From assembly GCA_026387965.1 (NCBI GenBank), contig JAPLKR010000043.1, positions 1 to 33,338 of the forward strand: DNA of 33,338 nt. Reading direction: 5' to 3'. This DNA comes from Fusobacteriota bacterium. Lineage in GTDB: Bacteria; Fusobacteriota; Fusobacteriia; JAPLKR01. The stretch's first letter is position 1; each line of letters starts with the position of its first letter. The notes below the pieces were generated by a model. The model was not told the DNA's origin. It worked only from the letters and a program-made list of their open reading frames with translations, and did not search any database. Position numbers and translations under genes: made by a program. Shown here piece by piece: positions 8,164 through 22,821 of the stretch.

Positions 8164-8558
8164 GTGTCCTCCCTAAGATAATATGAATTTATAATAATAT
8201 GAAATTATTAATATGATGGAATAAAAAGTACGGTAATTAACAGTGTGAATAATGGATAAAACCGAGAATGCGGTTATTAGAAAATTTAGATGAATTTTTG
8301 TATTTGATATATAATATTTTTTTGAATTGCTATATTTTCTCAAAATAATTTTATCTGCAAATATCTGAGATTTCCCCGCATGCTAGAGCGGTTTCAAAAC
8401 AAACCTTGGCAATGTTGTCATTTCGCCCATCTTGGAGACATCTCGAATTTTACAGGGATAGATCTCTCGGCTTCGCTCGAGATGACATATTGAAAAATGT
8501 CCAGTTTTGTTTTTGATTTGTTATAGTGTTTGAGTGCTATTTAGTAAATAATAAGTTT
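8164..8558. other. Intergenic region with MITE-like repeat
   Basis: 395 bases without a gene, between the transporter 5' end and the mnmH 3' end. 8164-8380 is AT-rich and must hold the transporter promoter on the minus strand; I cannot place it firmly. A short CCG/CGG hairpin lies near 8262-8278. 8386-8530 is the first copy of the dispersed repeat described separately. No clear terminator follows mnmH unless the repeat hairpin acts as one. Confidence 0.6.
8396..8513. repeat. MITE-like palindromic repeat, copy 1
   Basis: 118 bp bounded by 8-bp terminal inverted repeats AAAACAAA (8396-8403) and TTTGTTTT (8506-8513). The core is two facing copies of the window's palindromic repeat: GTCATTTCG...GAGACATCTCG, then AGATCTCTCGG...CGAGATGAC, able to fold into a long hairpin. 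It is about 85% identical by eye to 10950-11067, in the same orientation, and similarity extends to about 8386-8530. It has no coding capacity, so it must be non-autonomous if mobile. Confidence 0.75.
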
Positions 8559-10949: not shown

Positions 10950-11067
10950 AAAACAAACCTTGACAATGTTCTCATGCCGTCCAACGCGGAGACATCTCGA
11001 ATTTTACAGGAATAGATCTCTCGGCTTCGCTCAGGGTGACATATTGCAAAGCATCCAGTTTTGTTTT
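10950..11067. repeat. MITE-like palindromic repeat, copy 2
   Basis: 118 bp, the same length and orientation as copy 1, with the same terminal inverted repeats (10950-10957 and 11060-11067). Differences cluster in the forward half-core (CATTTCGCCCATCTTGG against CATGCCGTCCAACGCGG); the segment GGAGACATCTCGAATTTTAC is identical. Similarity extends to about 10940-11086. Copies 1 and 2 bracket selD-mnmH as direct repeats about 2.55 kb apart. Confidence 0.75.
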
Positions 11068-18398: not shown

Positions 18399-18514
18399 GC
18401 TATAATGGGGTATAGCTGAAAATAGAGTGAATAATCTTTAGTTAAGATGCGCTTAAAGTGCTGAAAATATTAGGACTAAAGTGTAGAAAAGACTCTTGAA
18501 AACAGTGGAAATAT

Positions 18515-18522
18515 GGTATAAT
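18515..18522 (+). promoter_or_regulatory. Extended -10 promoter of mod
   Basis: TGG-TATAAT arrangement (TATAAT at 18517-18522), with TTGAAA upstream at a short 15-base spacing. The block ATATGGTATAATTTA recurs at 31529-31543 before queA. GGGAGC at 18548-18553 is the ribosome site. Confidence 0.5.
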
Positions 18523-18558
18523 TTATTAAGTTGAAAAAATGATAAAAGGGAGCAAAAT

Positions 18559-20515
18559 ATGGAAAAATTAGAAGGCACCACTTTAAATATCGTAAATGAA
18601 AATATCGAGCAGTTGAAAAAAATATTCCCCGAAGCCTTCACAGAGGGGAATATTGACTTTGACGCTCTGAAAGAGTCCCTCGGCGAATTTGTGGACGGGA
18701 AAAAGGAGCGGTATAGCTTCAACTGGCACGGTAAATCAGACGCTAAACGCCTCGCACAGCTCCCAAGCACGGGAACACTTCGCCCAAAATCGCGCTGAGA
18801 GCGTGAACTTTGAGGAGTCACAGAACCTCTACATAGAGGGGGATAATCTTGAGGTGCTGAAACTGCTCCAAAAAAGCTACCACGGCAAGGTTAAGATGAT
18901 TTATATTGACCCGCCCTATAATACAGGGAAAGATTTTGTCTATCCCGATAAATTTCACGACTCACTGGCAAACTATAAGCAGATTACTGGGCAGGTGGAC
19001 GGTGATGGCAACCGTGTTAGCACCAACAGTGAGAGCAGTGGGCGTTACCACACCGATTGGCTCAATATGATGTATCCAAGGCTTACGCTCGCTCGTAATC
19101 TTCTTCGAGATGATGGGGTTATTTTTATCAGCATTGATGACAATGAGGTGGCGAATTCAAGAAAAATGTGTGATGAGATATTTGAGGAAAGTAATTTTAT
19201 AGCTAATTTTATTGTTGTGCGATCAGAAGGTGGAGGATTGGCAAAACAAGCAGTTATCGGTCATGATTATTTATTGTGTTATTCTAAGAATAATATAAAT
19301 TTTATTCCATTAAAAAAACCAAAAGATATCAGAGGTAAAGTTGTTATAATCAATAATGAAGAATATTGGATTGAAGATGACTGGTTAAGAAAAGAATTTG
19401 GAAAATATGGAACTTGCCCATACAATGAAATAGAAAAGTATTATGATTTTAATAAAAAAATAACTATAGATAAAGGAATTGAAGAAGGAAAGTATCAATT
19501 AATTGAAAAAAATGGTGTAATTCTTGTTGGAAGACTTAGAAAAATTAGCGAAGATGGTTCAAAATTTTATACAATTATGAAACACTTAAATAAGAATGGT
19601 GTAAAAGATTTACAAGAATTAGATTTGGAAACGATATTTGATTTTCCAAAGCCAGTTTCTCTTTTATTTTCTATAATTCAAGGAAGCACATTTAGTTCAA
19701 GCATAAATGAGGATATTATTTTAGACTTCAATAGCGGTTCAGCCACTACTGCCCATGCCGTCATGCAATTGAACAGTGAAGATGGGGGAAATAGAAAGTT
19801 TATCCTCGTGCAACTTCCAGAACCGTGTGATGAGAGTTCTGAGGCTTTTAAAGCTGGGTATAAGAACATTTGCGAGATAGGCAAGGAGAGAATTAGACGG
19901 GCAGGGAAGAAGATATTAGAAGAAAGATCTCTCGGCAATGCTCAGGGTGACAAAAAAAGTATTGTCATTTCGACCGAAGCGGAGAAATCTACTCTTTTAA
20001 AAGAGGAAATGAAAGATGTCTCGACTACGCTCGACATGACACCTAATGGTGTTGTTCAGGGTGACAATAATAACGACATGACAAAAAAACTTGACATTGG
20101 TTTTAAGGTTTTGAAACTAGATAGCAGCAATATCAAAGAGTGGGACCCATTGTGTCATGAGGATTTAGAAAATCAACTGCTTTTTAGCGTAGACAATATT
20201 AAACAAGAGCGAACGGCTGAAGATGTTCTTTATGAGATTTTCATCAAGTATGGGCTAGAGTTGACTGTACCGTGGAGAGTAGAGAAAAGTGGAGAGAAGC
20301 ACTTTTTTGTGGTCGGGGCTGGTAATCTGATTGTCTGCTTGTAAAATACCATTACAAGAGAACTCATTCAACATATCATAGAGTATAGCGTAAGTTCAGG
20401 GCTACCCAATCCATCCCTTATCCTCAAAGAGCTAGGGCTGGGGACGGATACCAATAAAACAAACATTTTACAACAATTAAAGCAAGCGAAAATCGAAGAT
20501 GTAAAGTGCGTGTGA
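18559..20515 (+). pseudogene. mod: Type III restriction-modification methyltransferase (Mod), disrupted
   Basis: Mod recognises the target and methylates adenine at N6 in type III systems. Translation starts at ATG 18559 with the usual Mod N-terminus, then hits TGA at 18796-18798. The remainder lies one base forward (long frame to TAA 20342-20344) and continues past that TAA, in coding style, to TGA 20513-20515. So there is one frameshift near 18790 and one in-frame stop. In the long frame the catalytic DPPYNTG starts at residue 74, ISIDDNE follows, the target-recognition region is about 165-340, and the SAM-binding DFNSGSATTAHA at about 346 comes after it, as in beta-class enzymes. Residues 413-465 are made by inserted palindromic repeats. 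Normal Mod text (DIGFKVLKLDSSNIKEWDP) resumes after them. Confidence 0.85.
19925..20085 (+). repeat. Palindromic repeats inserted in frame within mod
   Basis: Three to four repeat units in alternating orientation: reverse unit 19925-19952 (AGATCTCTCGG...GGTGACA), forward unit 19964-19994 (GTCATTTCGACCGAAGCGG...CTACTC), reverse unit 20014-20041, and further GGTGACA/GACATGAC debris to 20085. All are translated without a stop into about 53 residues, including VISTEAEKSTLL. Mod homologues go nearly directly from AGKKILEE-like to LDIGFKV-like text, so this stretch is an insertion. Confidence 0.8.
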
Positions 20516-20526
20516 TTCGCCCCTTT

Positions 20527-20612
20527 GTCATTTTGACTGAAGCGAAGCGTAACAGAGAAATCTACTCTTTTAAAACCAAGGGAGCAGATCTCTCGGTAAG
20601 CTCGAGATGACA
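20527..20612. repeat. Inverted pair of palindromic repeat units
   Basis: Forward unit 20527-20567 (41 bp, GTCATTTTGACTGAAGCG...TCTACTC), then reverse unit 20582-20612 (GAGCAGATCTCTCGG...GAGATGACA). They lie just after the mod remnant and before the GIY-YIG gene, and together could fold into a hairpin of about 30 bp with mismatches. Confidence 0.8.
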
Positions 20613-20654
20613 AATGAAAAAAAAATGATAAACAAAAAGTAAAAGGAGTGCCTC

Positions 20655-20939
20655 ATGGAAAATCATTACTATGTCTATATCCTAACCAATTATGCTAAAA
20701 CAGTATTATATATTGGCATAACAAACAGTATTCAAAGGCGACTATATGAACATAAAAATGATGTACATGAGGGATTTTCTAAAAAATATCAATGTCATTT
20801 TTTGTTGTATTGCGAAGAGTGTAGTGATGTAAATTCTGCCATTGCACGTGAAAAACAACTAAAAAAATGGAGCAGAGCCAAAAAAGAGTCACTGATTAAT
20901 CAAGTCAATCCAAGTTGGGAAGAGTTGAAAATATTTTAA
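20655..20939 (+). CDS. Stand-alone GIY-YIG endonuclease-domain protein
   Basis: 94 residues, a single GIY-YIG domain of the UPF0213/YhbQ-like class. YVYILTN (residues 6-12) is the GIY half and YIGIT (19-23) the YIG half, 10 residues apart. Arg28 or Arg29 (IQRRLYEHK) is the catalytic arginine, and Glu66 in AIAREKQLKKW is the metal-binding glutamate. All catalytic elements are present, so it looks active. Ribosome site AAAAGGAG precedes ATG 20655. It sits between an inverted repeat pair (20527-20612) and a tandem array of the same repeat (20949-21256), inside a destroyed type III R-M locus. A role in repeat mobility is my hypothesis; DNA repair or structure-specific cleavage are alternatives for this class. 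Confidence 0.9.
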   Translation: MENHYYVYILTNYAKTVLYIGITNSIQRRLYEHKNDVHEGFSKKYQCHFLLYCEECSDVNSAIAREKQLKKWSRAKKESLINQVNPSWEELKIF

Positions 20940-20948
20940 ATTCAAAAA

Positions 20949-21256
20949 GAGTAGATCTCTCCGCGTTGGTCGAGATGACAAACAGAACAAAAGAGTAGAT
21001 CTCTCCACGTTGCTCAGGGTGACAAGCGGAGCAAAAGAGTAGATCTCTCCACGATGGTCGAGATGACAAAATAAGGGTGAGATGGCAAAGAAAAAAAGTC
21101 TGTCATTTCGACTGGAGCGAAGCGTAACGGAGAGATCTACTCATTGTAAGAAAAATTAAAAGAGTAGATCTCTCCACGTTGGTCGAAATGACAAACAGAG
21201 CAAAAGAGTAGTTCTCACAGCGTTGCTCAGGGTGACAACATAAGGGCGAGATGACA
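20949..21256. repeat. Array of palindromic repeats, 44-bp period
   Basis: Reverse-orientation 32-bp units at 20949-20980, 20993-21024 and 21037-21068, exactly 44 bp apart, separated by 12-bp linkers such as AACAGAACAAAA. A forward unit of 41 bp follows at 21102-21142, then reverse units at 21162-21193 and 21206-21237, again 44 bp apart, and degenerate ends (GAGATGGCAA, GAGATGACAA). Unit consensus is about GAGTAGATCTCTCC then RCGTTGGTCGAGATGACA. No ORF uses the array, and it occupies the place where the 5' half of res should be. Confidence 0.88.
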
Positions 21257-21262
21257 ATGTAA

Positions 21263-22294
21263 ATGTTTGAAGAGGGGTATAACCGTATCATTCAAGAGCC
21301 TGATTTTCAAACACTTTTTGAAAATCGGTATAAAAATATGGAAGTCTCCAAGATACACAATGGATATTTTTCGCAGGATAATAAAAAACGTGCCAAGGAT
21401 ACCAATGGAAGCACCAAAGATGATGATGATACCTATGAGCTGATAATGAAAGATAAAGAGAGACTTCTCTCACTTTCAGAGCCACTAAGATTTATTTTCT
21501 CACATTCCGCCCTGCGTGAAGGGTGGGACAATCCCAACGTATTTCAAATCTGTACCCTCAATGAGAGCAGTTCTGAGGTGAAAAAACGTCAAGAGATAGG
21601 ACGCGGACTCCGTTTGGCAGTATATGAAAATGGCGAACGTTCCGAGGGGTTTCAAATCAATTATTTAACAGTCATGGCAAATGAGAGTTATGAGGAGTTT
21701 GTCTCAAAGTTGCAAAAAGAGTTTGAAGAGGAAAATGGTATTAAATTCGGCGTACTGGAAAATCATATTTTTAGTACCATTTACGTACCAAATGGCGAGA
21801 GTGGAACATTTTTAGGGGCTGAAAAATCCAAAGCGTTGGTGGAGTATCTCACTTCTGTTGGGTACGTTGAGAGCAATGGAAAAGTGAGTGACAAACTCAA
21901 AGAGGATTTAGTCACGGGAACGGTAACATTGCCTCAAGAGTATCACGAGATAAAAGAGAGTATCATTCATAAGCTGAAAACGGTTGCAGACAACCTCAAC
22001 ATTAAAAGAGCTGAGGATAAACGAGAGATTAAACTCTATGCAAAACTTCCAGCGAGTTTTAAAATTGAGACACCTCTGGGAAATTATAATCCTGATTGGG
22101 CATTAGTCTATGAAGAGAGAGGTGAGGAAAAACTCTATTTTATCGCTGAAACCAAAGGAACACTTAACAGCAGTGAGTTAAGAGAAGTTGAAAAAGGAAA
22201 AATTCATTGTGGTAAAAAACATTTTGAAGCCCTTTCTAATGATATCCATTTTGAACAGGTTGGTAGTTTAAAAAGCTTGGTGGATAGAGTATAA
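21263..22294 (+). pseudogene. res: Type III restriction endonuclease (Res), N-terminally truncated
   Basis: 343 residues matching only the C-terminal third of Res (about 950-1000 residues in EcoP1I-type enzymes). Retained: the late helicase motifs HSALREGWDNPNVFQ and QEIGRGLRLAV, and the C-terminal PD-D/ExK nuclease domain (YNPDWALVYEE ... FIAETKGT). Missing: the ATP-binding motifs I-IV of the N-terminal helicase. The frame starts where the repeat array stops; ATG 21263 has no ribosome site. Without ATPase motifs it cannot translocate and cleave as a type III enzyme. A short product with residual nuclease fold is conceivable but unlikely. Confidence 0.85.
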
Positions 22295-22373
22295 AATTTG
22301 ATACCGAGTAAAAAAAAAGATTTAATGCTTACTGTTTAAATTCATGGCAAATTAATACTATTGGAGGTTTAAA

Positions 22374-22613
22374 ATGGCAGAGATAAAATTTGATATAGTA
22401 GAAAAATTAGGTGCATTAGGTGAAAGTTCTAAAGGATGGCAAAAAGAGCTTAACCTCGTTTCGTGGAACTCACGGGGAGCCAAGGCTGATATTCGTGATT
22501 GGGATGAACTTCATGAGAAGATGGGGAAAGGTGTGACGCTTAACAGAAAAGAGCTAATAGCACTGAAAAAGCTACTAAGTGAGCTGGATTTGGATAGTTT
22601 GGAGATGGAGTAG
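22374..22613 (+). CDS. YdbC/PC4-like single-stranded DNA-binding protein
   Basis: 79 residues, the full length of the YdbC family (PC4-like fold, related to the transcription coactivator p15/PC4, binds single-stranded nucleic acid). Hallmarks are FDIVEKLGALGESSKGWQKE, LNLVSWNSRGAKADIRDW and HEKMGKGVTL. Ribosome site GGAGG precedes ATG 22374. It lies between the res remnant and the recCBD operon with about 220 bases before recC. A DNA-repair or transcription role is inferred only from the fold. Small acidic cytosolic protein; intact. Confidence 0.87.
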   Translation: MAEIKFDIVEKLGALGESSKGWQKELNLVSWNSRGAKADIRDWDELHEKMGKGVTLNRKELIALKKLLSELDLDSLEME

Positions 22614-22683
22614 GACGTTTCAAAACTACCCCCTCTAACTCCCCTTATGTTAGTGGGAGGACAAAAGGATTTTATCTTTAATT

Positions 22684-22821
22684 ATAATCATTCAAAAATC
22701 CGCCCTTATCCGTGGCAAAAAAGAGTTACTTACTTTAAAGTGTGGATTCTGCAATTTCGTTCCCATTCGTGACAACAACCTCTTTGTACTGTTTAAGCGA
22801 TTTAGCTTAGGCTCAAAATAA
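22684..22821 (+). pseudogene. Possible remnant of a small zinc-ribbon-like gene
   Basis: A continuous frame of about 45 codons ends at TAA 22819-22821: KSALIRGKKELLTLKCGFC, then NFVPIRDNNLFVLFKRFSLG. It has coding-like composition and one CxxC pair but no start codon or ribosome site, and the recC ribosome site follows at once. It may be the tail of a lost gene or chance. Family not recognised. Confidence 0.3.

Follow-up and report, generated by a model that had tools for sequence, protein, structure and literature searches.

We consider it probable that the repeat cluster interrupting the methyltransferase gene mod of this Fusobacteriota contig is an insert of TGTC-tagged, REP-like palindromes in a decaying gene, and that these REPs form one cassette with the GIY-YIG nuclease gene next door. 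Judged from the sequence comparisons reported here, the nuclease is likely the dedicated partner of CGTC-type REPs, and we infer that it mobilises them. Somewhat less firmly, we also lean towards a more general view, in which a small stand-alone GIY-YIG nuclease is the dedicated mobiliser of CGTC/TGTC REPs across phyla, including dRS3 of Neisseria and probably RPE-4 and RPE-6 of Rickettsia, and does so free of HUH and DDE enzymes. Taken alone, the in-frame insertion is nothing new in kind and only moderately interesting. The partnership of nuclease and repeats is the part that matters more.

The insert lies in a restriction island of which both main genes are damaged. Coordinates refer to the window, i.e., the whole stretch of 33,338 nucleotides that was analysed.

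18559-18798, + strand: 5' part of mod (MEKLEGTT...), in a frame that differs from the rest of mod according to three-frame translation
18689-20344, + strand: main open frame of mod, a type III-like N6/N4 DNA methylase (PF01555, Pfam E 1.6e-29)
20345-20512, + strand: 3' remainder of mod past the stop, frame unchanged, matching the C-termini of homologues (E 6e-7 and 3e-5)
21263-22294, + strand: res remnant of 343 codons (PF19778), compared with the homologues in loci L168-L175

The reading frame of mod is lost near 18780, and its main frame is terminated by an in-frame TAA at 20342-20344. The res remnant lacks approximately the first 440 and approximately 210 internal codons, i.e., about 650 of the roughly 1000 codons present in relatives, where res directly adjoins mod (e.g., locus L169). 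As the genome is a draft, a lone frameshift in mod could be an assembly error, but the losses in res hardly can. These frames mark mod as a broken gene, or pseudogene, in a decaying restriction island. A sequence-only reading of this DNA had placed the repeats between normal Mod blocks; homologous blocks do align on both sides, but the gene to which they belong is not intact. Two relatives from the same class (G019 and G007, loci L174 and L175) also have mod split in two frames, at another place than in the window, and phase variation, decay or sequencing error could explain the split in all three genomes. A short ORF with a PC4-like domain (PF02229) is located downstream of the res remnant, at 22374-22613.

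The repeat units were delimited with R1, a 36-nt cmsearch model built from 12 units of the window. Four of these 12 training units are those of the mod insert, and the E-values given for them here, computed within the window, are thus partly a fit by construction:

19925-20081, + strand: inserted repeat cluster, read in the mod frame as RSLGNAQGDKKSIVISTEAEKSTLLKEEMKDVSTTLDMTPNGVVQGDNNNDM and missing from Mod homologues
19925-19952, - strand: TGTC-tagged half-unit with truncated tail (R1 26.2 bits, E 2.5e-7)
19963-19998, + strand: full TGTC-tagged half-unit (R1 34.1 bits, E 7e-10)
20007-20041, - strand: TGTC-tagged half-unit, partner of 19963-19998 (R1 24.8 bits, E 7e-7)
20042-20066, - strand: degenerate TGTC-tagged half-unit (R1 10.8 bits, E 0.02)

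The second and third half-units form an inverted pair, which folds as DNA into a 79-nt hairpin (z -2.75), and a tag fragment extends the cluster to approximately 20081. This agrees with the earlier statement that at least three repeat units are read in frame within mod. The mod frame is free of stops across 19925-20081 (approximately 52 codons), and each of the other five frames carries one to five. An alignment with Mod relatives of the same class puts the borders of the insert exactly between RIRRAGEKIK and LDIGFKVFKLDSSN, where the linker measures 57 residues in the window versus roughly 7-23 in most close relatives. The alignment indicates that the insert is real and that it fell into a naturally length-variable, tolerant linker of Mod. 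The insert residues were looked for in the aligned relatives and are absent from all of them. The notion of a conserved Mod domain was rejected on the same ground. It had further been claimed that the repeat family spread after mod arrived, and in this point the absence of the insert from relatives fits an insertion into an existing mod.

An insert in the only open frame of six, placed in a tolerant linker, might be taken for a functional new segment of a working Mod that is kept by selection, as proposed for the Rickettsia palindromic elements (RPEs). In R. conorii, proteins bearing RPE-1 are indeed expressed (cited in PMC3733652). For the window, we regard this explanation as very improbable. 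mod carries a frameshift and a stop, and of res only a remnant is left; since mod is already broken, the in-frame status of the insert says little about function. Across all frames of 13 single palindromes, 26 of 78 are open, which makes an in-frame landing unremarkable, and by our own estimate a random insertion keeps an open frame perhaps once per 10-20 tries. Among the 24 clusters found in the genome, the insert is the only one within a protein gene and hence the only in-frame case. The remaining 23 lie outside long open frames; where they overlap a frame at all, it is a short chance one of no more than 118 codons. The proposal that the family creates new peptide segments does not hold as a rule: the insert peptide has no significant match among the other proteins of the genome, and the claim comes down to one dead gene, where luck may have been at work. 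That the frame stayed open is due either to chance or to selection at a time when mod was still functional.

The half-units share a common architecture. Each starts with TGTC, followed by an imperfect stem led by A-T, e.g., TGTCATTTCGACCGAAGCGGAGAAATCT, and two half-units in inverted order yield a long hairpin. The GTCA tag is found in 12 out of 12 window units, nearly always as TGTC. DNA folding yields the stems ATTTC/GAAAT and ATCTC/GAGAT in most of them, with a 5-bp outer stem, an interior mismatch and a larger loop than in the described CGTC families, while units starting with TGTCACC... fail to pair. R1 detects 43 units genome-wide and none in 47 control loci (151 kb); among 98 genomes of the class, the repeats are confined to the window's genome. 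It is these counts, and not the within-window E-values, that establish the repeat family as real. The 24 clusters are mostly inverted pairs. The CTCTTTT tail is shared by units on contigs C9 and C58, so that some spread took place within the genome. No Rfam family matches 18500-22700. Two further members of the window come from the genome-wide cluster survey:

8416-8487, no strand assigned: dispersed palindrome with TGTC tag
10972-11041, no strand assigned: dispersed palindrome with TGTC tag

At these two places and in loci L176-L192, a longer dispersed element of approximately 130 bp surrounds a central TGTC pair; its shared outer sequence runs from CAAAACAAACCTTGACAATG... to ...CCAGTTTTGTTTTTGAT. 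The element has a MITE-like look and approximately 14 copies in the genome.

Further half-units bracket a small nuclease gene between mod and res, 570 bp downstream of the insert:

20526-20612, no strand assigned: inverted pair of half-units upstream of the nuclease gene, 20526-20571 (+) and 20579-20612 (-), found by R1
20655-20939, + strand: orphan GIY-YIG nuclease gene, 94 aa (PF01541, E 4.5e-16)
20945-21237, no strand assigned: array of six half-units downstream of the nuclease gene, found by R1 like each of its parts
20945-20980, 20989-21024 and 21033-21068, - strand: first three units of the array
21101-21145, + strand: fourth unit of the array
21158-21193 and 21202-21237, - strand: last two units of the array

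The segment 21101-21193 folds as DNA into a strong hairpin (z -7.95). The nuclease gene is single-copy in the genome. Its catalytic-type residues Y, G, R and E are invariant in 22 relatives, and the AlphaFold2 model (mean pLDDT 93) has UPF0213 and Slx1 as nearest folds, the latter being a branched-DNA nuclease. Such genes are usually annotated just as "GIY-YIG nuclease family protein"; NCBIfam holds no model for the nuclease, and PHROGs gave weak GIY-YIG matches only. Since 50,697 phage records contain no relative, the gene is unlikely to derive from a phage homing endonuclease. In named genomes, relatives occur in at least 16 phyla. On a plasmid of Planktothrix agardhii (L233), a relative is situated in a defence island, with an MmeI-type restriction gene on one side and DISARM drmA on the other, and perfect tagged hairpins are absent within 400 nt of it.

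The association of nuclease and repeats extends far beyond the window. Of 81 nuclease loci, 37 have R1 matches no farther than 400 nt from the gene, and 23 have them on both sides. The density of matches is 2.42/kb within 250 nt of the gene versus approximately 0.05/kb beyond 750 nt. Independently of any model, 49 of 79 loci have three or more 12-mers in common between their two flanks, versus 1.9% of 532 control positions obtained by shifting within these loci. TGTCAT is the top enriched flank hexamer, runs of N aside (289 observed versus 43 expected, in 70 out of 81 loci). Perfect CGTC hairpins border the nuclease gene on either side in Neisseria gonorrhoeae, Azospirillum lipoferum 4B and Rhizobium sp. 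CIAT894; in Sinorhizobium meliloti they lie upstream of it. In N. gonorrhoeae, the bracketing repeats are of the CGTCATTCCCGCGCAGGCGGGAATC type, which fits the description of dRS3. A scan for tagged hairpins with loose pairing gave just a roughly 3-fold enrichment (3.1) of YGTC over a high background, and the stricter tests above were used instead. The same scan speaks against an explanation by GTAG repeats and RAYTs, which was rejected: GTAG-tagged hairpins are not enriched (ratio 0.8 versus 3.1 for YGTC). At a locus from Treponema's class (L196), a third type of repeat, GTCATTGCGAGGAGGCGAATG...GAAGCAATC, borders the nuclease gene on either side.

These figures also bear on the possibility that REPs are simply RNA or terminator hairpins found genome-wide, whose proximity to the nuclease is a by-product of hot spots in islands. 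REPs are often transcribed at gene ends (PMC3733652), as such a role would have it. The enrichment drops sharply with distance and is lacking at shifted positions in the same loci. Such repeats are missing from ordinary GIY-YIG genes (housekeeping, UPF0213-like) and from mod loci in the window's class. A terminator role also leaves unexplained the co-divergence described below, and we give it hardly any credence.

Two repeat types can be distinguished in the flanks. Type A (GTCAYYYCGA...) is imperfect and window-like; type B consists of perfect hairpins of 7-8 bp, e.g., TGTCATTCCCGCGAAGGCGGGAATCCC. A type could be assigned at 57 of 82 loci versus 6 of 271 control windows, and 25 of the 82 are without a clear type. 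Two changes of type suffice on the nuclease tree over these 57 loci, versus a mean of 17.7 and a minimum of 12 in 300 shuffles, whereas host phylum changes 28 times; the tree has few columns and many weak forks, but the contrast in change counts is large nonetheless. With loci from Spirochaetia and Alphaproteobacteria added, there are 3-4 type changes over 71 A/B loci and 18-20 changes of host GC class. By these comparisons, repeat type tracks the nuclease rather than the host.

Co-occurrence across genomes points in a similar direction, with exceptions. In Treponema's class, window-type repeats are present in numbers in one of 198 genomes, a nuclease-bearing one, with one borderline single match besides. 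Among 30 nuclease-bearing genomes, 25 carry window-type repeats, a biased figure as most of the 30 were picked for repeats near the gene. In 385 alphaproteobacterial genomes, presence of the nuclease is associated with that of a canonical CGTC REP pattern (odds ratio 5.3, p 1.6e-7, genomes treated as independent). Flank repeats common to both sides were found in 18 of the best 30 alphaproteobacterial nuclease loci versus 0 of 55 controls. On the other hand, no nuclease hit was obtained in 16 of the 48 alphaproteobacterial genomes that are REP-positive. One of them, G600, holds 92 canonical CGTC REP copies and zero nuclease matches at E 1e-14. Such genomes may have lost the enzyme, may be incomplete, or may use another enzyme.

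Those 16 genomes are in line with our chief rival explanation, in which the GIY-YIG gene would be a parasite of the homing type with existing REPs as its landing sites, the REPs being spread by something else. Filled and empty sites are informative here. In A. lipoferum, a REP-nuclease-REP cassette is located between sufB and sufC; it is absent from this place in A. ramasamyi, A. oryzae, Azospirillum sp. B510 and A. thermophilum. The empty site of these relatives has no CGTC REP (B510 has an unrelated hairpin there), which suggests that REPs and nuclease gene arrived together, against the expectation for homing. Filled and empty sites align, but in a search for a target-site duplication, the criterion applied to MITEs, intergenic divergence masks the exact ends. 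A different situation was found in Sinorhizobium, where strain C101 holds a single REP-like palindrome at the site at which S. meliloti Ak57 has REP, nuclease sequence and REP. Existing REPs may thus be favoured landing sites, as homing would predict. In Ak57, a 3' fragment of the nuclease lies between REPs just upstream of a full copy (L232, 1159-1776), which would fit two rounds of insertion or recombination of the cassette. In two classes, the window's genome aside, window-type repeats were found in numbers solely in company with the nuclease, and the repeat type co-diverges with the nuclease. Altogether, the Azospirillum site and the co-divergence argue against homing as a full account, and we think it unlikely as such; the Sinorhizobium site speaks for it as an account of part.

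The cassette explanation, which we prefer, would run as follows. The nuclease gene and its flanking REPs would constitute a cassette that is distributed across bacterial phyla, with solitary REPs as its non-autonomous copies. The nuclease would recognise tag plus hairpin when extruded or single-stranded and would nick the hairpin. A fold near UPF0213 and Slx1, together with the invariant catalytic-type residues, makes hairpin-nicking the simplest reading. Repair or replication would then copy the REP, or the REP-nuclease-REP DNA, to a broken or new site. In the window, TGTC-tagged REP-like palindromes would in this manner have landed in the tolerant linker of a type III mod.

Few repeats are as common in bacterial genomes as REPs, and GTAG REPs are served by RAYT transposases. 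We know of no case in which a nuclease fold of the GIY-YIG type spreads repeats in prokaryotes. In the papers searched, no link between GIY-YIG and such palindromic repeats was found; subscription journals and preprints were largely outside this search, and an earlier description is possible. A gene annotated just as a GIY-YIG nuclease family protein gains a candidate role. If true, the proposal would explain how palindromes reach the interior of genes, be it mod in the window or proteins in Rickettsia, and it would provide a way of repeat spreading by a nuclease fold with neither HUH nor DDE transposase.

Compared with known systems, the window units are closest to the CGTC-REP superfamily, which includes Neisseria dRS3 as well as RPE-4 and RPE-6 of R. 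conorii (Di Nocera 2013, PMC3733652). Common to both are an unpaired TGTC or CGTC tag at one end, complementary A-T residues at the first two stem positions (in most window units), and inverted pairs or clusters dispersed genome-wide, mostly between genes and sometimes in frame within genes. The described CGTC families have a perfect stem of 8-9 bp and a loop of 4-5 (PMC3733652), whereas the window units have an imperfect short stem and a larger loop. We therefore see them as relatives of the superfamily outside its four described families. Around nuclease relatives, such perfect stems do occur in Neisseria, Azospirillum, Rhizobium and Sinorhizobium; the 2013 survey counts A. lipoferum and S. 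meliloti as CGTC-positive (PMC3733652). That survey concluded that CGTC REPs are without a dedicated transposase (PMC3733652), whereas a dedicated enzyme is proposed here.

With the Rickettsia RPEs, the insert shares palindromes in frame within a protein gene, and the resemblance noted from the sequence alone is borne out by the membership of RPE-4 and RPE-6 in the CGTC-tagged superfamily. In-frame REPs are known in many cases, and clusters in R. conorii and Thauera encode 43-82 residues (PMC3733652). RPEs differ in that they reside in many working genes, here it is one of 24 clusters and one broken gene. GIY-YIG homing endonucleases, UPF0213 and Slx1 have the fold and the conserved Y, Y, R and E in common with the window nuclease, but the latter stands alone and has a conserved REKQLKKW segment, and its cassette is bounded by REPs and not by an intron or intein as in homing endonucleases. 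The closest parallel in organisation is the REPtron of RAYT. In both, a single-copy nuclease gene is bracketed by REPs dispersed in the genome, and enzyme and repeat type co-diverge. The REPtron uses an HUH/Y1 tyrosine transposase and GTAG REPs or REPINs; the proposed cassette combines a GIY-YIG nuclease of 94 aa, as assigned by PF01541 and fold, with the TGTC/CGTC tag.
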